Shown here one piece after another: positions 8,810 through 63,565 of a DNA stretch of 64,000 nucleotides. The notes below the pieces were generated by a model that saw only the letters and a list, made by a program, of their open reading frames with translations, did no database searches and was not told the DNA's origin. Source of the DNA: a virus; the IMG/VR virus record IMGVR_UViG_3300035703_000053, positions 19,754 to 83,753 of that record; one strand, 5' to 3'. A program made the translations under genes and the position numbers. The number at the start of each line of letters is the position of its first letter. The first letter of the stretch is position 1.

Positions 8810-10324
8810 TTAATTTGCTGGGTACTCACCTGCACTCGGATTGTAAAAAGCGCCGGTCTTATCCTGCATTCTAAAATTCTCTAATCTAATAAAAGAAGCT
8901 GGAACGTTCAATAGTTTTTGCATCATTGGAAGCATTACTGGTGATTGAAAATTCTTTGGTGGCACATCCATTAAGGCCATGCCTCTTACAGCTTGCATGT
9001 CATTTATGTGTTTATTTGTCACTGACATTTCATACACTAACCTTTGTTCCCATTCCGTAATACTTTCTTCTGTTGCAAAGGGTAGATCAGATGGCTCTGG
9101 CGGTAGAATACCTTCTTCAAAGCGAAGAGCGTAAATATGTTTGCAATAACGCATTTCATCTAATAACGGTGACCAGTAATCCGTATACGACGTTATTTGA
9201 TTATTTTTTGCCGTGTAGTCCACAAATGTGGTAGGACCTTCCGCTCTGCGTGCTGCACTAAAGTTGCGAAGATAACGTCCACCAAAGTCATTGTATACAC
9301 CAGGGTTATCAATAGATTGCGTTGCAAGTGCTAAGTCTCTGTTTTGATTGGCATCCGTCATGGCGCTGTTGTTAACAGAACCAGTATTAGGGTCCGTTAA
9401 TACTTCAGACCGTCCGTATTTTAAAAGTGCTGGTCTTGTAAAAGGAAAGCGTTTTTTCTCACTGCCTTCTAGATTCATCATAAAACTATAACTACGACGG
9501 CTAAAATCCTGGCATGTGCATGCATAACGTGTGCCTACTGTAAAAAACCTCCCAACCGAAAAAGTTTTAGTAGCGGGAGTTAAATAAAGATTGTCCGGAC
9601 TAGCTTCAAACGAACTGCTTTTTTGAAGTTTTAGAATCCCATTAGGACCATCAACATCAATTAAAATTGCCTGAACGTATCCATATCTTTTTGATGTGGA
9701 GGGGTCTAGCGTGTCTTTGGTGATAGGTGACCCACCAACAGCAAGAATTCGATCTTCTAAGATTTCACCCAGCAACGGCTTAATAGGGTCGCCGGATGGG
9801 TTTGGAACGTACAAAGGAGGGGGTAGTGGATTTGTTGTACTCCAGCTACCAGCTAATTGTACATACCAAAATTCATCATCTTCTGTAATTGATGCAATTG
9901 TTGCAGGGGTACCTATTGAATCCCTGACGTTATCAAAACGCAAAATAGATCCAATACGACAACCTACCCAGTGAACTCCAAATTCTTTTCCTGCTGTAAA
10001 AAATCCTTGTACAACACCAAGAATTAAAGGTTGTCGGCCTTCAGCAGGCGGGGTCCCGTCTGGGCTGGGTATCTGATATTCAAACGGATATGTCAATGCA
10101 TGCTGAATACCAACAGCAGTTGAAATCTCGTACCCACGGCGCCATCTGCTCCAGGCTGATTCCCGGTCCATGCGTACAATAGAGTTTGGAACGGAGCCCT
10201 TTGAAAACTCTGTTGTAATAGGCTTTATTTTATCAATGTCAGGTATGTCTTGCGCACCAAAGGTGCCAAAAGCTGTTCCTTTGTTTTTAAACGCACCAAA
10301 GGAATTACCCCCTTTGATTGCCAT
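8810..10324 (-). CDS. Virion-block protein with widely split SWIM-like Cys/His pairs, 504 aa
   Basis: Not assigned to a family. A CxC pair (YACTCQDF, Cys269 and Cys271) and a CxH pair (RYCKHIYALRF, Cys394 and His396) have the sequence style of SWIM zinc fingers, but about 120 residues separate them. Much of the rest is beta-rich with Pro/Gly loops and no hydrophobic helix. It lies in the late operon three bases after the gene that ends at 10328. A structural role in the virion (adaptor, tail or baseplate) is inferred from position and composition. Confidence 0.6.
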   Translation of the reverse strand: MAIKGGNSFGAFKNKGTAFGTFGAQDIPDIDKIKPITTEFSKGSVPNSIVRMDRESAWSRWRRGYEISTAVGIQHALTYPFEYQIPSPDGTPPAEGRQPLILGVVQGFFTAGKEFGVHWVGCRIGSILRFDNVRDSIGTPATIASITEDDEFWYVQLAGSWSTTNPLPPPLYVPNPSGDPIKPLLGEILEDRILAVGGSPITKDTLDPSTSKRYGYVQAILIDVDGPNGILKLQKSSSFEASPDNLYLTPATKTFSVGRFFTVGTRYACTCQDFSRRSYSFMMNLEGSEKKRFPFTRPALLKYGRSEVLTDPNTGSVNNSAMTDANQNRDLALATQSIDNPGVYNDFGGRYLRNFSAARRAEGPTTFVDYTAKNNQITSYTDYWSPLLDEMRYCKHIYALRFEEGILPPEPSDLPFATEESITEWEQRLVYEMSVTNKHINDMQAVRGMALMDVPPKNFQSPVMLPMMQKLLNVPASFIRLENFRMQDKTGAFYNPSAGEYPAN

Positions 10325-34157: not shown

Positions 34158-34373
34158 ATGGACGCTGGTACCAGGCAAAAACGAATTGAAGCCCTAGAAG
34201 CGATTAAAAACAACGCTCTTAAGTTGGCACGTGAGGGGCGTGACTCGTTGGAAGTGCGTGATTTTGTAACAGAAGCTAAAAAAGAATTGGCATATGAGCT
34301 TCCCGATGAAGAAGCTTTTGTAAAAGCAAAGAATGCAACATTGGCCTATAAGAGGGCAAAAGAGGAAAAATAA
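34158..34373 (+). CDS. Small charged helical protein, 71 aa
   Basis: The ATG at 34158 (MDAGTRQKRIEALEAIKNNA) is preferred to 34095, which lies in the -35 region. It is highly charged and helical throughout, with no recognised family. It is the first plus-strand gene after the divergent promoter, which makes an early or regulatory role possible. Confidence 0.55.
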   Translation: MDAGTRQKRIEALEAIKNNALKLAREGRDSLEVRDFVTEAKKELAYELPDEEAFVKAKNATLAYKRAKEEK

Positions 34374-34492
34374 AATTTTTAAAATTTGTAAAAAATAAAA
34401 ATAAAACAAGGGCAAGTTAGGGTTTAAAGTTAGGGAATATTGGATATTTTACCGACATAAATTAGTTTTTAGTTAATTTTTAATGTTGTGCG

Positions 34493-34512
34493 GCCCAAGT
34501 ATGGGCTTTTTT
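34493..34512 (+). terminator. Rho-independent terminator
   Basis: GCCCA / TGGGC with a four-base AGTA loop is followed by TTTTTTATT. It ends transcription from the promoter at 34.1 kb after the 71-aa gene, so the leader-gene array to the right probably has its own promoters or depends on read-through. Confidence 0.75.
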
Positions 34513-34645
34513 ATTACCTATTTGTAGTTAGGGCGGCCCCTATAGGGCCCAAATAGGATTAAAAATTACCTGACGCTTCTCCAACCAGCTAACCGAAGTG
34601 GAATGTGGGAAGAAAAAAAAGAATAGGTGAGTGGTTGAATATTGT

Positions 34646-34675
34646 ACGGGGGCTGCGCATCCGTTAATAACGCAG
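34646..34675 (+). promoter_or_regulatory. Pseudoknot leader, family 1, copy 1
   Basis: ACGG (34646-34649) can pair with CCGT (34661-34664), and CTGCG (34653-34657) with CGCAG (34671-34675), in the interleaved order of an H-type pseudoknot. The core GGGGGCTGCGCATCCGT is repeated exactly near 35070. It lies 22 bases before the ATG of the 78-aa gene at 34698. Function as a translation or attenuation control is inferred. Confidence 0.6.
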
Positions 34676-34697
34676 AGTTCTACCACAGGTTAGTTCA

Positions 34698-34934
34698 ATG
34701 ACTGAGCGTGTGAAGCGTTTTGAGAGGGCAGCGAGCATGTTGGTTGCTGGCTGTAAGGTTAGCGTGTTGGTAAGTGAGTTACCGCAGGGTAACGTGCAAG
34801 CATGGCTAGCTGAATTGAAAGGTTACGTAATGTTTGGTCACACTGATCCAGGGGATGAGTGGATTTATAAAGTTTACGTTACTGTGAAGAACGGTCGAGC
34901 AGTAGCGCAGGCGAAAGTAGTGTACGTTAATTGA
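34698..34934 (+). CDS. Hypothetical protein, 78 aa
   Basis: Not recognised. The ATG at 34698 follows the family-1 pseudoknot. Helical N-terminus (RVKRFERAASMLVAGCKVSV) and a beta-rich end with V/K/A alternation (VYVTVKNGRAVAQAKVVYVN). No ribosome-binding site of the GGAG type is seen within 12 bases, so initiation may depend on the leader. Confidence 0.55.
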   Translation: MTERVKRFERAASMLVAGCKVSVLVSELPQGNVQAWLAELKGYVMFGHTDPGDEWIYKVYVTVKNGRAVAQAKVVYVN

Positions 34935-34938
34935 GGAT

Positions 34939-35062
34939 AAGTTGGTTTAATCCGACATTATCTGATAAGTAATTGTACTTACTTGTCAATTGTCAGCGTT
35001 TCCTGACACGACTTTTCGGCTACCCGGCGCGAGGCTTGCGGGAAAGACCGTGTGACAGCTGG
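34939..35062 (+). promoter_or_regulatory. Structured leader with mutually exclusive helices
   Basis: TGTCAG (34991-34996) pairs with CTGACA (35003-35008), but CTGACACG (35003-35010) can instead pair with CGTGTGACAG (35049-35058, two-base bulge). Inside the second helix lie CCCG and CGGG arms. A first hairpin GTTGG / CCGAC lies at 34943-34958. The two main helices exclude each other, as in the family-3 elements. It lies ahead of the family-1 pseudoknot and the 58-aa gene. Confidence 0.45.
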
Positions 35063-35067
35063 TAGTA

Positions 35068-35095
35068 ACGGGGGCTGCGCATCCGTACAACGCAG
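35068..35095 (+). promoter_or_regulatory. Pseudoknot leader, family 1, copy 2
   Basis: ACGG (35068-35071) with CCGT (35083-35086) and CTGCG (35075-35079) with CGCAG (35091-35095) interleave as in copy 1. The loop between CCGT and CGCAG is ACAA here and TAATAA in copy 1, while the stems are identical. It ends 23 bases before the ATG of the 58-aa gene, the same spacing as copy 1. Confidence 0.6.
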
Positions 35096-35118
35096 AACAT
35101 TCCATCGCATTCAACGCA

Positions 35119-35295
35119 ATGATTTATTCGGTATGCATTAAGAGTTCGTTGTCGTATCAAGATTTCTTGTTTGCCAAAACATTGTATAGCTCAGTAGAGA
35201 AAGAGTTTTCTACTGAGCAACAAGCTCAACAATATATCCAATCTTTTGAAGATTGGGAGCGTAACTATTTACATATAGAAGTGTTTCCGTTCTAA
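35119..35295 (+). CDS. Small hypothetical protein, 58 aa
   Basis: A complete 59-codon frame from ATG 35119 begins MIYSVCIKSSLSYQDFLFAK and ends WERNYLHIEVFPF. It is soluble, with a helical charged middle (VEKEFSTEQQAQQYIQ). It follows the second family-1 pseudoknot and precedes the first T-arm element. No known family. Confidence 0.6.
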   Translation: MIYSVCIKSSLSYQDFLFAKTLYSSVEKEFSTEQQAQQYIQSFEDWERNYLHIEVFPF

Positions 35296-35303
35296 GTTTT
35301 AAC

Positions 35304-35372
35304 GCCTGATGGTGCAGGAAGGGTTCGACTCCCTTCCCAGGCATTGCCCCCAGCGGAGATGGGCACCGCACA
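35304..35372 (+). promoter_or_regulatory. T-arm/pseudoknot element, family 2, copy A
   Basis: GCCTG (35304-35308) pairs with CAGGC (35338-35342) around a 7-bp arm GGAAGGG / CCCTTCC with the loop TTCGACT, the same as a tRNA T-loop. There is no gap between arm and closing stem, as in the tRNA acceptor/T-arm stack. A second module follows: GCCC (35346-35349) with GGGC (35361-35364), and GCGG (35353-35356) with CCGC (35366-35369), an H-type pseudoknot. This copy lacks the small P2 hairpin of copies B-D. Confidence 0.6.
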
Positions 35373-35373
35373 A

Positions 35374-35388
35374 CAGGAGTTTCCTGTG
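35374..35388 (+). promoter_or_regulatory. Hairpin enclosing the ribosome-binding site and start
   Basis: CAGGA GTT TCCTG forms a 5-bp hairpin that holds the AGGAG ribosome-binding site, with the GTG start overlapping its 3' edge. The second such hairpin at 35861-35874 (ATGGA GTTA TCCAT, start ATG 35873) has different stem bases but the same arrangement. Both would hide the ribosome-binding site until the stem opens. Confidence 0.5.
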
Positions 35389-35481
35389 GACTACACACCA
35401 GTCGGTCAGGTTATTGCACCTTACGTTTCACTGGTTGCAATATTCATTGCTGCCTTTGTAATAGGTTACGTAACCGACTGA
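35386..35481 (+). CDS. Single-pass membrane microprotein, 31 aa
   Basis: A GTG start at 35386 with AGGAG seven bases upstream opens a 31-codon frame: MDYTPVGQVIAPYVSLVAIF followed by IAAFVIGYVTD (first residue from GTG). The central 18 residues are a clean transmembrane helix, with a short charged end. Its TGA lies in the closing stem of the next family-2 element. A host-membrane role is plausible. Confidence 0.55.
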   Translation: MDYTPVGQVIAPYVSLVAIFIAAFVIGYVTD

Positions 35482-35553
35482 TCCGTATAAGCGGGTGACC
35501 AGGTGCAAACCCTGGTCCAGTTATTGCCCCCAGCGGAGATGGGCACCGCACAA
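35477..35553 (+). promoter_or_regulatory. T-arm/pseudoknot element, family 2, copy B
   Basis: A three-way junction: closing stem ACTG (35477-35480) / CAGT (35518-35521), small hairpin CCG TATAAG CGG (35483-35494), and T-arm GACCAGG / CCTGGTC with the loop TGCAAAC (35497-35517). Then follows the same pseudoknot as copy A: GCCC/GGGC with GCGG/CCGC (35526-35549). The last 31 bases are identical to copy A. The upstream stop codon is inside the closing stem, and the next ATG is 14 bases downstream. Confidence 0.6.
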
Positions 35554-35566
35554 TCCACTGCAAAGC

Positions 35567-35782
35567 ATGTACATCATCTTTGTTAATGGCGAACAGCATA
35601 GCTGCTATGGCTCTAACGAATACGTTGAGGCCATAGAAGAAGCTGCTCAGCTGGACCACATGTACAACTCACCTGAGTTGAACGGTGGCGTCCAGGGCGC
35701 CACAGCGGTCGAGATTCTGACTGTATCAGGCAGGATACTGTCTGATGCAGAGCTTGATGCTCGTGCAGCTATGGCTGACTAA
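35567..35782 (+). CDS. Hypothetical protein, 71 aa
   Basis: The ATG at 35567 (MYIIFVNGEQHSCYGSNEYV) is the first that leaves the family-2 element outside the gene; a frame open from 35495 would run through it. It is an acidic protein with a beta start and helix (EAIEEAAQLDHMYNS). No ribosome-binding site is visible between the pseudoknot and the start. Family unknown. Confidence 0.6.
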   Translation: MYIIFVNGEQHSCYGSNEYVEAIEEAAQLDHMYNSPELNGGVQGATAVEILTVSGRILSDAELDARAAMAD

Positions 35783-35856
35783 CTGATCCGTACACACGGA
35801 CTGGGAGGTGTGAGCCCTCCCTCAGTTATTGCCCGACCGTAGGGATGGGCTCCTAC
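35781..35856 (+). promoter_or_regulatory. T-arm/pseudoknot element, family 2, copy C
   Basis: Closing stem AACTGA (35781-35786) / TCAGTT (35822-35827), hairpin CCGT ACAC ACGG (35788-35799) and arm GGGAGG / CCTCCC with loop TGTGAGC (35803-35821). The pseudoknot is GCCC (35831-35834) / GGGC (35847-35850) with GTAGG (35839-35843) / CCTAC (35852-35856). Compared with A and B the second pseudoknot stem has changed on both strands (GCGG/CCGC to GTAGG/CCTAC), as have the T-arm and P2, keeping the pairing. Confidence 0.65.
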
Positions 35857-35872
35857 ACACATGGAGTTATCC

Positions 35873-36157
35873 ATGGATTTGACTACAGGTTGGCAGCAAC
35901 ATCCCAACGTGCCTGGTGGTTACCACCTGGTTTACGTTGATGATCTGGTCGGTGACTTATCCATTGTTACTGGACCGAGAGGTTCAGGGCTAATGGCATC
36001 TAACGACCCAGGTCAGGAACCTACTTATGAAGTGTGGTTTCCAGGGATGGCTGATCCAACCGGTCACCTAACACTTGATGAGATCAAAGGGATCATCAAG
36101 TACATGCGTCAACGTGAGCAGGAGCGTATGAACTACTGCTACAACGAAGACAACTGA
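35873..36157 (+). CDS. Hypothetical protein, 94 aa
   Basis: The ATG at 35873 (MDLTTGWQQHPNVPGGYHLV) has GGAG six bases upstream, hidden in the hairpin ATGGA GTTA TCCAT; ATG 35861 in the same frame is the alternative. The protein is beta-rich and soluble, with a helical end (LDEIKGIIKYMRQREQERMN). Family unknown. Confidence 0.6.
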   Translation: MDLTTGWQQHPNVPGGYHLVYVDDLVGDLSIVTGPRGSGLMASNDPGQEPTYEVWFPGMADPTGHLTLDEIKGIIKYMRQREQERMNYCYNEDN

Positions 36158-36220
36158 TCCGTATAAGCGGGAGGCAGGGTGCAAACCCCTGCCCAGTTAT
36201 TGCCAACCACTGAGGTTGGC
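36152..36220 (+). promoter_or_regulatory. T-arm element, family 2, copy D
   Basis: Closing stem AACTG (36152-36156) / CAGTT (36194-36198), hairpin CCG TATAAG CGG (36159-36170), and T-arm GGCAGGG / CCCTGCC with loop TGCAAAC (36173-36193). The downstream module here is a simple 7-bp hairpin GCCAACC / GGTTGGC (36202-36220); I could not find a pseudoknot partner for its loop. The next ATG is 11 bases away. Confidence 0.6.
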
Positions 36221-36231
36221 TTGCAAACACA

Positions 36232-36405
36232 ATGGGCATTCGCAAAACTTTGGCCAATGCACTTAACTCGACAGCAGCAATGCTGGAGAGTGACACATCT
36301 AAAGAGTACATCAGCGCCAAGCTGAGTGAGTACCGTATCCGTGCGGCAGCAATCATGATGCCAAAGGATATGGCATTCATCATTACTCCTAAGACAGACA
36401 TTTGA
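36232..36405 (+). CDS. Small hypothetical protein, 57 aa
   Basis: ATG 36232 opens MGIRKTLANALNSTAAMLES and the frame ends ITPKTDI at 36405. Helical, Ala/Met/Lys-rich, soluble. It starts 11 bases after the hairpin of family-2 element D, with no ribosome-binding site of the GGAG type. Family unknown. Confidence 0.55.
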   Translation: MGIRKTLANALNSTAAMLESDTSKEYISAKLSEYRIRAAAIMMPKDMAFIITPKTDI

Positions 36406-36436
36406 TCTCAACAGTCAACTTAATTCAATTCAGCTT

Positions 36437-36664
36437 ATGTTTATCTATCAACCAAAGGATGCACTTGATCGTGTCGTATGGTATGGAGGTGAATCTACTC
36501 AGCTCCACTATGAGCAGGAAGTAGATGGATGGGACGGCAATCCTGATTGGATTGAACGTTCAGTTCGTACTCTTGGTGGTGGTATACCAGCGGGAGTATC
36601 TGAACTACAAGCCGAGCTTGTGGATTATTACAACTACTGTCAGTGCGCAGTTAACTACGATTGA
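36437..36664 (+). CDS. Hypothetical protein, 75 aa
   Basis: Not recognised. MFIYQPKDALDRVVWYGGES starts 31 bases after the preceding stop; that short gap has no obvious structure. Trp/Tyr/Asp-rich, acidic, with a helical end (SELQAELVDYYNYCQCAVNY). Its stop is directly followed by the first family-3 element. Confidence 0.55.
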   Translation: MFIYQPKDALDRVVWYGGESTQLHYEQEVDGWDGNPDWIERSVRTLGGGIPAGVSELQAELVDYYNYCQCAVNYD

Positions 36665-36665
36665 C

Positions 36666-36723
36666 TCCTGTAATTAACCCTTTGCTTTGGCAGAGGGTTT
36701 CCTACAGGATTCAACAATCCTGT
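36666..36723 (+). promoter_or_regulatory. Strand-exchange leader, family 3, copy 1
   Basis: Outer stem TCCTGTA (36666-36672) / TACAGGA (36703-36709) encloses an internal loop ATT/TCC and an inner stem AACCCT / AGGGTT. The 3' outer strand can instead form an 8-bp hairpin ACAGGATT (36704-36711) / AATCCTGT (36716-36723) with a CAAC loop. The two states exclude each other. It lies between the 75-aa and 79-aa genes, 25 bases before the latter's ATG. Confidence 0.65.
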
Positions 36724-36748
36724 CACTCAACTCAACTAGGACTCAACA

Positions 36749-36988
36749 ATGACTCCTGCATACGTTGAACGGCTACTTACACAAGATGCTCGACTGCTTG
36801 CCAGGAGAGATTCCCCTGCCATTGACCAAGATCTTGAGCAGCAGCGTCAAGCTGCACTCGAAATCTTTTTCAAATGGCAGGATGATGCCTGTCAATTTGA
36901 AGACGTTATACCGTTCTGTGTTGTGCTCCAGCGCAAAGTAAATCTCAATCGAGATTTGCTACGTTGGGAACGCCAGAACGCAGACTGA
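36749..36988 (+). CDS. Hypothetical protein, 79 aa
   Basis: Not recognised. MTPAYVERLLTQDARLLARR begins a fully helical, charged, Gln/Arg/Leu-rich protein. It sits between the first and second family-3 elements, and its stop is one base before the second. Confidence 0.55.
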   Translation: MTPAYVERLLTQDARLLARRDSPAIDQDLEQQRQAALEIFFKWQDDACQFEDVIPFCVVLQRKVNLNRDLLRWERQNAD

Positions 36989-36989
36989 C

Positions 36990-37060
36990 TTCTGTACTTA
37001 ACCTTCCGTTGATATGAATTCGTATCGGCGGTAGGTTTTCTACAGGACTCAACATCCTGT
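36990..37060 (+). promoter_or_regulatory. Strand-exchange leader, family 3, copy 2
   Basis: Outer stem TTCTGTA (36990-36996) / TACAGGA (37041-37047, one G-T pair), internal loop CTT/TTC, inner stem AACC / GGTT with further CCG / CGG pairing around an AT-rich loop. Alternative hairpin ACAGGA (37042-37047) / TCCTGT (37055-37060). It precedes the OB-fold-like gene at 37104. Confidence 0.6.
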
Positions 37061-37103
37061 CACCAGTACATACGTACTACCAATCCAATTCAACACAACG
37101 GTC

Positions 37104-43422: not shown

Positions 43423-43429
43423 AGCCAAC

Positions 43430-43463
43430 AGCCAGCATCCTCGTCACTGCTGGCTTTCATTCT
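43430..43463 (+). terminator. Rho-independent terminator after the PcfJ-like gene
   Basis: AGCCAGCA (43430-43437) and TGCTGGCT (43448-43455) form a perfect 8-bp stem followed by TTCATTCTT. It lies eight bases after the PcfJ-like stop. The T-run is imperfect, so efficiency is uncertain. Confidence 0.65.
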
Positions 43464-43464
43464 T

Positions 43465-43716
43465 ATGTCAGGGTCCATTGCTCCAGGTGCAGACGATGAT
43501 CAACAGCCACTATCAGTGGAGGATCAACGGCTGCTTGCAATGGCCCTGGCCAACCTTGGTCAATACATTCATGACAACTCACCACACTATGAGTTGATTG
43601 AAGATCCAAGGAACGATGATGACTATGACACCTGGGAGGTGGGTATGGAACCACTACCAGGTGATCATACTTGGCGGTCTAATTCCATAGACGTAAGTCC
43701 AAGTAACGGGGTGTGA
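43465..43716 (+). CDS. Acidic hypothetical protein, 83 aa
   Basis: Not recognised. MSGSIAPGADDDQQPLSVED followed by QRLLAMALANLGQYIHD is helical; the end is acidic and Pro/Ser-rich. Its last ten bases overlap the 5' end of the tRNA-Leu gene. Confidence 0.5.
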   Translation: MSGSIAPGADDDQQPLSVEDQRLLAMALANLGQYIHDNSPHYELIEDPRNDDDYDTWEVGMEPLPGDHTWRSNSIDVSPSNGV

Positions 43717-43792
43717 TGAAATTAGAAACCATGACTGACTTAAAATCAGTTGGCCTTTGGCCTTGCAGGTGCAAGTCCTGTCACCCCGACCA
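43707..43792 (+). tRNA. tRNA-Leu (anticodon TAA)
   Basis: Acceptor CGGGGTG (43707-43713) pairs with CACCCCG (43782-43788); discriminator A and encoded CCA (43789-43792). Anticodon arm ACTGA CTTAAAA TCAGT (43734-43750) gives anticodon TAA. The long variable arm GGCC TTT GGCC marks the Leu/Ser/Tyr class. The T-arm is GCAGG TGCAAGT CCTGT. The D-arm is reduced: a 3-bp ATG/CAT stem and a loop lacking the conserved GG. It overlaps the previous gene's stop. The tRNA may aid reading of the phage's UUA/UUG codons. Confidence 0.82.
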
Positions 43793-43813
43793 CTTACATA
43801 CTTAACTCAAACC

Positions 43814-63099: not shown

Positions 63100-63101
63100 A
63101 A

Positions 63102-63173
63102 TCGGTCGTGCTGGAATCGAACCAGCTTTCCACGTAGCTTGTCGCCCCGTCCTTACCAATAGACTACCGACCG
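63102..63173 (-). ncRNA. tRNA-like RNA without a normal anticodon arm (2)
   Basis: CGGTCGG pairs with ACGACCG (one mismatch) as an acceptor; T-arm GCTGG TTCGATT CCAGC is perfect; D-arm GTC TATTGGTAAG GAC is short but has the GG. The 22 bases expected to hold the anticodon arm do not form a stem with a seven-base loop. It lies three bases from the first tRNA-like RNA. It could be a decayed tRNA or a tRNA-mimic kept for its acceptor/T-arm. Confidence 0.55.
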
Positions 63174-63565
63174 AGTGACCCCCTGGTTTGTGCATCATCC
63201 GGCGTCCCGGAGCTAGGCATAGGGGGTGTTGCATGATGCAAAGCTTCAGGGCTTTACTTGCTTCAGGGCGTTTCATGCATGATCCGTCGCGCTTGCCAAA
63301 TCGGTCCCCGGCGCACCCGTGAATCAATCGGGCGGAGGTGATCAACCCTCCGGCCTGGAAACCCAGGACTTAGACGCAAACCAGGACAGGCAAGTACGCC
63401 TTCATGGGCTGGTTGCACCCTACCGACAGAGCAGTAGGGGTGGTTGATGGATCAGGTGTGTCGCCTTCTAGGCTATGTGCCTAACGCGCACAGGGACCTG
63501 ACCTCTATCACTCGTAATCATACAACAAAAAATAACACTGTGCAAATATTGTATGCAGCAGAATA
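63174..63565. other. Non-coding, GC-rich structured region
   Basis: No credible gene in 390 bases. Features include the large pseudoknot at 63178-63240, two GCTTCAGGGC direct repeats (63243-63252 and 63260-63269), and hairpins GGAGG / CCTCC (63334-63351), CCTGG / CCAGG (63354-63367), GCAAACCAG / CTGGTTGC (63376-63415) and ACCCTAC / GTAGGGGT (63417-63441). The density of pairing suggests one or more structured RNAs; strand is not clear. Confidence 0.5.
63178..63240. ncRNA. Large H-type pseudoknot
   Basis: ACCCCCT (63178-63184) pairs with AGGGGGT (63221-63227), and TGCATCAT (63191-63198) pairs with ATGATGCA (63233-63240), in interleaved order. A small CCGG CGTC CCGG hairpin lies between. Stems of 7 and 8 perfect bp make chance unlikely. 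It sits directly beside the two tRNA-like RNAs. Confidence 0.55.

Follow-up and report, generated by a model that had tools for sequence, protein, structure and literature searches.

Cyanophage mRNA elements resembling the top half of a tRNA at gene borders

The window analysed here, a stretch of 64,000 nucleotides (nt) comprising bases 19,754–83,753 of an 83.7-kb virus record (IMG/VR IMGVR_UViG_3300035703_000053), contains four structured elements, each located between consecutive small genes: A (35304–35371), B (35476–35551), C (35781–35858) and D (36152–36226). Comparison with homologues demonstrates, at the sequence level, that A to D are members of a family of cis-acting cyanophage RNAs built from two separable modules, and that selection maintains the top half of a tRNA with an acceptor-like end within mRNA, in many cases overlapping a stop codon and in many cases with a pseudoknot after it. 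The first module is very probably a mimic of the tRNA elbow. The family has no Rfam match above threshold and evolves by compensated changes in two groups of cyanophages. As these include the model phages P-SSP7 and Syn5, the family is testable at once.

Results

Architecture of the four elements

Module 1 consists of an acceptor-like stem and a T-stem stacked to 11–12 base pairs (bp) and a 7-nt T-loop of the UNNRA or AUCRA type. A small loop supplies bases equivalent to D-loop positions 18 and 19, and the module ends with an unpaired base, usually A, at the discriminator position, followed by UU rather than CCA. There is no anticodon arm; the acceptor-like strand and the T-stem are separated by 16 nt in 153 of 317 copies, which make up the largest class, and by 8 nt in the class of copy A. 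In the phage group of the window, module 2 is an H-type pseudoknot or a plain hairpin that begins about 3 nt after module 1.

The first-pass annotation of this DNA had described A to D as tRNA-like T-arms with a downstream pseudoknot or hairpin. All four are present on the plus strand where it had placed them, and the description was correct in almost all details. The tRNA-like module of A (35304–35342) has acceptor-like strands at 35304–35308 and 35338–35342 (GCCTG/CAGGC), a D-loop-like GG at 35311–35312 and a T-stem of 35317–35323 with 35331–35337 (GGAAGGG/CCCTTCC) closing the T-loop TTCGACT (35324–35330). Its pseudoknot (35346–35369) is formed by stem 1 (S1, GCCC/GGGC, 35346–35349 with 35361–35364) and stem 2 (S2, GCGG/CCGC, 35353–35356 with 35366–35369). 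One detail concerning the small hairpins needed correction: the mini-hairpin is absent from A, which carries a short GG-bearing loop instead. B follows the plan of A with the addition of a mini-hairpin (CCG TATAAG CGG, 35483–35494). Its module 1 (35476–35522) pairs 35476–35480 with 35518–35522 in the acceptor-like stem and 35497–35503 with 35511–35517 around the T-loop 35504–35510; in its pseudoknot (35526–35549), 35526–35529 pair with 35541–35544 in S1 and GCGG pairs with CCGC (35546–35549) in S2.

The T-arm of C (module 1, 35781–35827; acceptor-like strands 35781–35785 and 35823–35827; T-loop 35809–35815) comprises six pairs with a T-T mismatch at the base. The A19-like base of its mini-hairpin (35796) and the U56-like base of its T-loop (35811) form an A-U in place of a G-C combination. 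The pseudoknot of C (35831–35856) consists of S1 (GCCC/GGGC, 35831–35834 with 35847–35850) and a longer S2, in which GTAGG (35839–35843) pairs with CCTAC (35852–35856). In D (module 1, 36152–36198; acceptor-like stem 36152–36156 with 36194–36198; T-stem 36173–36179 with 36187–36193; T-loop 36180–36186), the pseudoknot is replaced by a plain 7-bp hairpin (36202–36220; GCCAACC and GGTTGGC around ACTGA), as seen in the sequence and on folding.

The intergenic placement of the elements, originally given as reaching from the end of one gene to just before the next start, holds with a refinement: the upstream stop codon lies within or overlaps B (TGA, 35479–35481), C (TAA, 35780–35782) and D (TGA, 36155–36157) and is situated just upstream of A (35293–35295). 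The stop codon in B ends a hydrophobic open reading frame (ORF) of 31 codons with a GTG start (35386–35481, plus strand), taken from the ORF list and by eye, for which homologous starts were seen.

Compensated changes in homologues

Synechococcus phage S-EIV1 was the only annotated phage record with similar DNA in the region at an E-value limit of 0.01; it carries two copies on the minus strand (43720–43795 and 43425–43501). Megablast gave no match to the region. Exact-pattern scans of IMG/VR yielded 87 stretches with the pseudoknot pattern and at least 120 with the mini-hairpin pattern. We built a model, R1, on 34 aligned homologues of equal length, with B included and A, C and D excluded. 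Standard pairs fill 99.1% of the cells in this alignment, compared with 81.8% after shuffling and at most 46.8% when partners were slid, and both-side changes occur at 15 of the 23 pairs, spread over all five helices including S2 of the pseudoknot. Because the seed was chosen partly by pairing, the pairing percentage leans toward structure; the both-side changes do not.

R1 recovered the unseen copies A, C and D with E-values of 1.5e-12, 1.5e-11 and 1.5e-16, respectively (1.8e-22 for B, which is in the seed), and at E≤10 neither the window nor the remainder of the 83.7-kb record yielded a further match. It gave 243 matches in 91 sources (loci L005–L092, the window and two halves of S-EIV1) and 195 in another 100 (L094–L193), L001–L004 and L093 having been left out; some contigs recur across loci, so that not all of these matches are independent. 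A phage group was assigned for part of the contigs. In 39 long records (40 loci), chosen for holding copies, there are one to six copies per record.

Pairing was also evident where it had played no part in selection. Among 117 unique matches to the mini-hairpin pattern, which does not specify the T-arm, all seven T-stem pairs are formed in 111 and six in 2 more, and these 113 matches contain 27 different T-stems. In the 117 matches, G-U far exceeds A-C both in the T-stem (15 vs 2) and in the outer stem (66 vs 4), which identifies the sense-strand RNA as the conserved entity. S2, likewise unselected, forms all four pairs in 186 of 267 pseudoknot-motif matches (those with the first S1 pair formed, from 386 in total) as against 87 after shuffling of the 3′ strands among them; the paired stems are of 11 different kinds, some found only once. 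The earlier observation that paired bases change together between copies is thus borne out in homologues by five compensated helices, by S2 pairing and by covariation in the elbow.

A hand-made descriptor returned 461 raw matches compared with 39 in reversed sequence, and 357 were unique. For the analysis of the stack 317 were retained, with 27 loop sequences kept and a TT(G/A)CC-like tail required, so that the tail is partly imposed. Unique totals vary across tallies (248, 259, 228, 293) because the stretch used for duplicate removal differs.

A second group of phages

Querying with individual copies brought up T7-like cyanophages. S-SBP1 carries three, two of them at the gp01/gp02 and gp02/gp03 junctions of its first early genes and one upstream of the major capsid gene; S-CBP42 has one, upstream of the capsid gene; and MedDCM-OCT-S45-C4 has four, of which those before psbA and the capsid gene are weak (E 0.0015 and 0.006). 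P-SSP7 and Syn5 each show one descriptor match before the capsid gene and none in either reversed genome; three further matches inside genes of P-SSP7 were taken as chance. R1 scored the P-SSP7 copy at E 1.4e-4 and the capsid copy of Syn5 only at E 0.85, with another Syn5 copy at 2699 reaching E 9e-5. In P-SSP2 and P-SSP3 an early copy with a TAG stop within the acceptor-like strand was recognised by eye (R1 E 0.54). Capsid-gene loci were then sampled as the best 80 from each of two scans. Among the 121 of these 160 loci with at least 500 nt upstream, the strict descriptor found the module in 45, whereas it found none in 121 reversed stretches and none in 121 in-gene stretches.

The T-loop lies approximately 126–249 nt before the capsid gene in the T7-like phages. 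By a noisy ORF test, a stop codon falls within the module in 23 of 33 unique elements, and the ORF concerned often codes for a very small protein carrying a YRGV(A/V)Y motif; three out of the four examples tested resembled DUF4278, at scores below the Pfam cut-off. A tiny ORF with this motif before the capsid gene (e.g. L198:3898–4004) was seen by a loose motif search in 73 of the 160 loci, with or without a tRNA-like element.

A tRNA-like ruler and elbow

The stack of tRNA consists of 7+5 bp. Counted outward from the T-loop, pairing in copies with 7-bp T-stems (178 copies) amounts to 85% at position 12 and 16% at position 13, and in those with 6-bp T-stems (50 copies) to 82% and 42%. In copies with 5-bp T-stems the stack ends at position 12 when the spacer is 17 nt (86%, then 0%), and with a spacer of 14 nt pairing drops from 92% to 58% and 17%. 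An A precedes UU in 258 of 292 copies, a count in which the tail is partly imposed. In the T7-like phages, exactly 12 nt separate the T-loop from the A73-like base in 28 of 33 unique elements, and the base is A in 25 of 30; here TT was used to locate the base and a stack of 10–13 was required, the value of 12 not being imposed. CCA follows in 0 of 33. In tRNA numbering this 12-nt ruler corresponds to positions 61–72, followed by 73. The family displays the 12-bp acceptor plus T stack and the A-type discriminator of a tRNA, the 11-bp class being the exception.

Contacts of the elbow were tallied for the 158 of 228 elements with a mini-hairpin of the common form, the 70 without the tested form being excluded. 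The 19-56 combination, between the last base of the mini-hairpin loop and T-loop position 3, is G-C in 57, A-U in 7 and non-standard in 5 of 69 distinct combinations. In the window it is A-U in C and G-C in B and D, and overall the A-U state is found on three different hairpin stems. As to 18-55, position 18 is G in 7 of the 10 combinations whose T-loop position 2 is T, and it is A or C in 57 of the 59 whose T-loop position 2 is G. The Fisher values for these relations (5e-8 and 9e-7) serve only as a guide because related sequences are not independent. A covarying 19-56 Watson-Crick pair, as expected of a true elbow, is therefore present, more weakly so in the T7-like phages. The 18-55 relation recurs in the latter (8 G-T, 0 G-G, 2 other-T and 19 other-G), partly at one genomic place, where GGTTAGG occurs with TTC loops and GGTTAAG with TGC loops. 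A-like copies, which have no mini-hairpin, carry a GG together with a TTCG loop, and the class with the loops ATCGAAT or ATCAAAT mostly retains a GCGTGA-like hairpin. The natural 18-55 and 19-56 variants show which of the elbow contacts can replace one another.

Stop codons, start codons and ribosome-binding sites

For 251 of the 259 unique elements a stop codon was located upstream. It occupies helix position +2 or +3, inside the acceptor-like strand, in 145 of the 251. Start calls in the same tally are partly wrong because of an ATG inside the pseudoknot, which the counts that follow put right for the pseudoknot type only. Of the called starts in pseudoknot-type copies, 142 of 143 lie 30–49 nt after the helix. 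Sequences resembling a ribosome-binding site (RBS) lie ahead of the start codon in 74 of the 143 copies of the pseudoknot type and in 12 of the 137 of the hairpin type; about 50 of the hairpin-type starts, called within or shortly after the hairpin, look mis-called. The lack of an evident RBS before the next gene, pointed out in the first-pass annotation, is hence common among copies but not general. By eye, the start codon and a Shine-Dalgarno (SD)-like GGAG of pseudoknot-type copies often lie within a small hairpin 3′ of the pseudoknot (CAGGAGTTTCCTGTG, CATGGAGTTATCCATG; e.g. 35374–35388 of the window).

Relation to known RNA families

When the whole window was scanned with Rfam 15, no family reached its gathering threshold at the elements. 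At E≤10, five unrelated sub-threshold matches, two of them overlapping A or C, and none of the cyanophage families of Rfam appeared in 34600–37100. Neither ARAGORN nor Rfam (RF00005) detected a tRNA in 35304–36226, and for tmRNA there was no ARAGORN call, no Rfam match and no CCA in the 33 elements mentioned above. The protein families of neighbouring genes gave nothing above curated cut-offs. In the titles and abstract openings returned by our searches of the open literature we found no description of such an element in phages. The statement that no named class has this architecture is upheld by the lack of an Rfam match above threshold and of any such class in the literature searched: as far as these searches go, the element is a tRNA-like structure in kind and new as a family in its place and architecture.

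On the host side, a 20-base pseudoknot pattern hit two stretches of genome contigs, assigned to Oscillospiraceae and Hydrogenophaga. R1 gave one weak match at these two loci (Hydrogenophaga, E 0.072) with module 1 absent, and both were dismissed as chance; cyanobacterial genomes were not scanned with R1 itself. Elsewhere in the window there is an Rfam-supported tRNA-Leu(UAA) gene (43707–43792, plus strand) and a tRNA-Cys call with anticodon ACA (63101–63174, minus strand) made by ARAGORN and not supported by Rfam.

Discussion

RNase P, RNase Z and other elbow-binding machines measure the acceptor/T stack. Mitochondrial transcripts are punctuated by tRNAs, the early mRNA of T7 is cut between genes by RNase III, and 5′ structures of the kind found here stabilise mRNAs. 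We favour the reading that the element is a signal for tRNA-processing enzymes of the host, which would use it to punctuate polycistronic phage mRNA, with the pseudoknot or hairpin protecting the newly made 5′ end, and put the chances of this reading only just short of even. The tRNA-handling machinery of the host would recognise the elbow of module 1 and measure the stack; the best candidates for the reader would be RNase Z, with a cut after the A73-like base, and RNase P, and the transcript would thereby be punctuated gene by gene. Both enzymes are present in cyanobacteria (PMC10989914). A cut by RNase Z would spare the upstream stop codon and place the start of the downstream message about 2 nt ahead of the pseudoknot or hairpin, which would shield this end; a cut by RNase P would often fall before the stop codon. 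Released messages would have a pseudoknot or hairpin at their 5′ ends. As the stop codon often lies in the acceptor strand, the element would be unfolded by a ribosome that completes the upstream gene, and processing would thus be coupled to translation. By analogy, the copy positions in S-SBP1 would fit the cutting of T7 early mRNA. Cleavage as the actual mechanism is possible, with the balance leaning slightly to the other side. Our broadest proposal, that relatives of S-EIV1 and T7-like cyanophages both use stop-overlapping elbow mimics, cut or bound by host tRNA-processing enzymes, as gene-by-gene tRNA punctuation in DNA phages of cyanobacteria, is offered as a tentative one. If true, polycistronic mRNA of DNA phages is organised through borrowed tRNA recognition, as is known from mitochondria and RNA viruses.

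Several observations weigh against this reading or against the fold on which it builds. Folding of single sequences gives weak support (z of −0.62 for A, −1.42 for B, −2.26 for C and −3.60 for D), and the minimum-energy folds of A and C differ from those proposed; since these energies are too weak, the case for the fold rests on covariation. Copies with 5-bp T-stems and a spacer of 15 nt have a stack that ends at position 11 and pair again at position 13 (69%), and 16 copies, from two classes that skip one base, do not match the register used. The +1 base (A 136, G 84, T 51 and C 22 of 293) and the 1-72 pair are not tRNA-like. The 19-56 pair fails in five of the 69 combinations, and in the T7-like phages G-C was found in 17 of 29 assigned hairpins, the rest being non-standard. 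No strict match was obtained at 76 of the 121 capsid loci. With the gene start approximated in some, 9 of these 76 show some T-arm compared with 3 reversed stretches, about 7 of the 9 being copies with an imperfect outer stem. As the module precedes the capsid gene in 45 loci and is lacking in most, it is facultative there. Moreover, RNase Z might be impeded by a structure lying 2–3 nt beyond its presumed cut, and RNase P, cutting at the 5′ edge, would in many cases cost the upstream gene its stop codon.

The initial interpretation had been that structured intercistronic elements recruit ribosomes or tRNA-binding proteins. Structured intercistronic RNA and T-arm mimicry are retained, the latter strengthened by the ruler, the A73-like base and the elbow, and recruitment of ribosomes is possible. 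In its present form, this explanation holds that initiation at the next gene depends on ribosomes that the tRNA-like fold and the pseudoknot either recruit or retain when these have just terminated at the embedded stop. The span from stop to start, the narrow distance of 30–49 nt between helix and start and the higher frequency of SD-like sequences in the pseudoknot type than in the hairpin type would all suit it, and a tRNA-mimicking viral internal ribosome entry site that binds bacterial ribosomes provides a precedent (PMC5723415). Half of the pseudoknot-type copies, however, have an ordinary SD-like sequence, and the half of the tRNA that is copied is acceptor and T-arm. It is the anticodon stem that sits in the decoding site. 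The tie to the upstream stop codon, with its fixed place in the helix, and the distance of about 126–249 nt to the capsid gene in T7-like phages fit a simple ribosome-entry element poorly, and we consider such a role unlikely.

Placement beside the stop codon would also be expected of a stabiliser that acts without cleavage, in the manner of repetitive extragenic palindromic (REP)-like hairpins: a compact fold after the stop would block 3′ exonucleases, and structure before the start would shield the next gene. In its favour, host RNase E increases in Prochlorococcus under P-SSP7 infection (PMC10989914). A plain GC-rich hairpin would suffice for this purpose, and the length of the stack, the A73-like base and the elbow contacts would remain unexplained, so that this alternative seems quite improbable. 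A decoy that occupies a host tRNA-binding factor or a tRNA-targeting defence might profit from several copies in early transcripts (one to six per record in the 39 records chosen for holding them); yet one or two copies are enough in S-EIV1, S-CBP42 and others, a decoy needs no fixed placement from stop to start, and the anticodon arm is missing, all of which renders it very improbable. Least credible is a repeat acting at the DNA level, be it a recombination site (attC-like or at a boundary) or an intergenic repeat with a promoter, such as those of halovirus HF2 (PMC8707807): the elements are repeated, partly palindromic and set between small gene cassettes, but the excess of stem G-U over A-C is not that of an attC-like site, copies within one genome diverge in sequence with pairing kept, and 34200–37100 contains no sigma-70-like site as against 4.8 in shuffles, on which grounds the recombination and promoter readings were rejected. 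Terminator-like sites in the same interval number 4, compared with 3.0 in shuffles.

Punctuation by tRNA enzymes has counterparts elsewhere. Plant mitochondrial t-elements, the MALAT1 mascRNA and mitochondrial tRNA punctuation share with the phage element a tRNA-like fold within longer transcripts at gene borders, and their cutting by RNase P and RNase Z has been shown by experiment. The phage element differs in having no anticodon arm, an often embedded stop codon and a following pseudoknot or hairpin, and its cutting is a prediction. The tRNA-like domain of tmRNA, with acceptor stem, T-arm and D-loop contacts and no anticodon arm in a pseudoknot-bearing RNA, is similar in exactly these respects; the phage element has no Rfam tmRNA match, CCA or tag frame, and its parts come in another order. 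RNase III sites of T7, a related type of phage, likewise lie between early genes and near the capsid gene, but they are double-stranded hairpins and not tRNA-like. Among structured RNAs of phages and cyanophages, STAXI, a repeated pseudoknot, manA, wcaG and PhotoRC-II are comparable (PMC2864571); the cyanophage families of Rfam went unmatched in our region. The Start Associated Sequences (SAS) and extended SAS of cluster K mycobacteriophages recur ahead of certain non-structural phage genes, inverted repeats accompanying some of them, and their function is given as unknown (PMC3203893); they consist of a 13-bp sequence and 17-bp inverted repeats in other hosts, with no tRNA-like fold.

Neighbouring structured elements

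A second element, (C/A)GGGGGCTGCGCATCC(G/T)..ACGCAG, occurs in the window at 34647–34675 and 35069–35095 and at 70 unique places in the fetched loci, mostly about 48–50 nt before an ATG. Its 5′ flank and hairpin loop covary as a pseudoknot (CGG/CCG in 45, AGG/CCT in 23 and CAG/CTG in 1 of 70). TATAAT-like boxes precede it in 6 of 70 places compared with 3 in the control. At some loci its immediate downstream neighbour is the tRNA-like element or the pseudoknot module. Two further intergenic stretches of the window (36665–36749 and 36989–37103) contain nested inverted repeats (TCCTGTA..AACCCT..AGGGTT..TACAGGA) as well as a second hairpin, CAGGAT..ATCCTG, with TCAC after it; by eye, the plan in S-EIV1 is similar. 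S-EIV1 itself carries intergenic CCTGGG..GGT(A/G)TAAGTCCCAGG with a T-loop-like sequence (L005:8267–8313 and 8957–9021), again recognised by eye.

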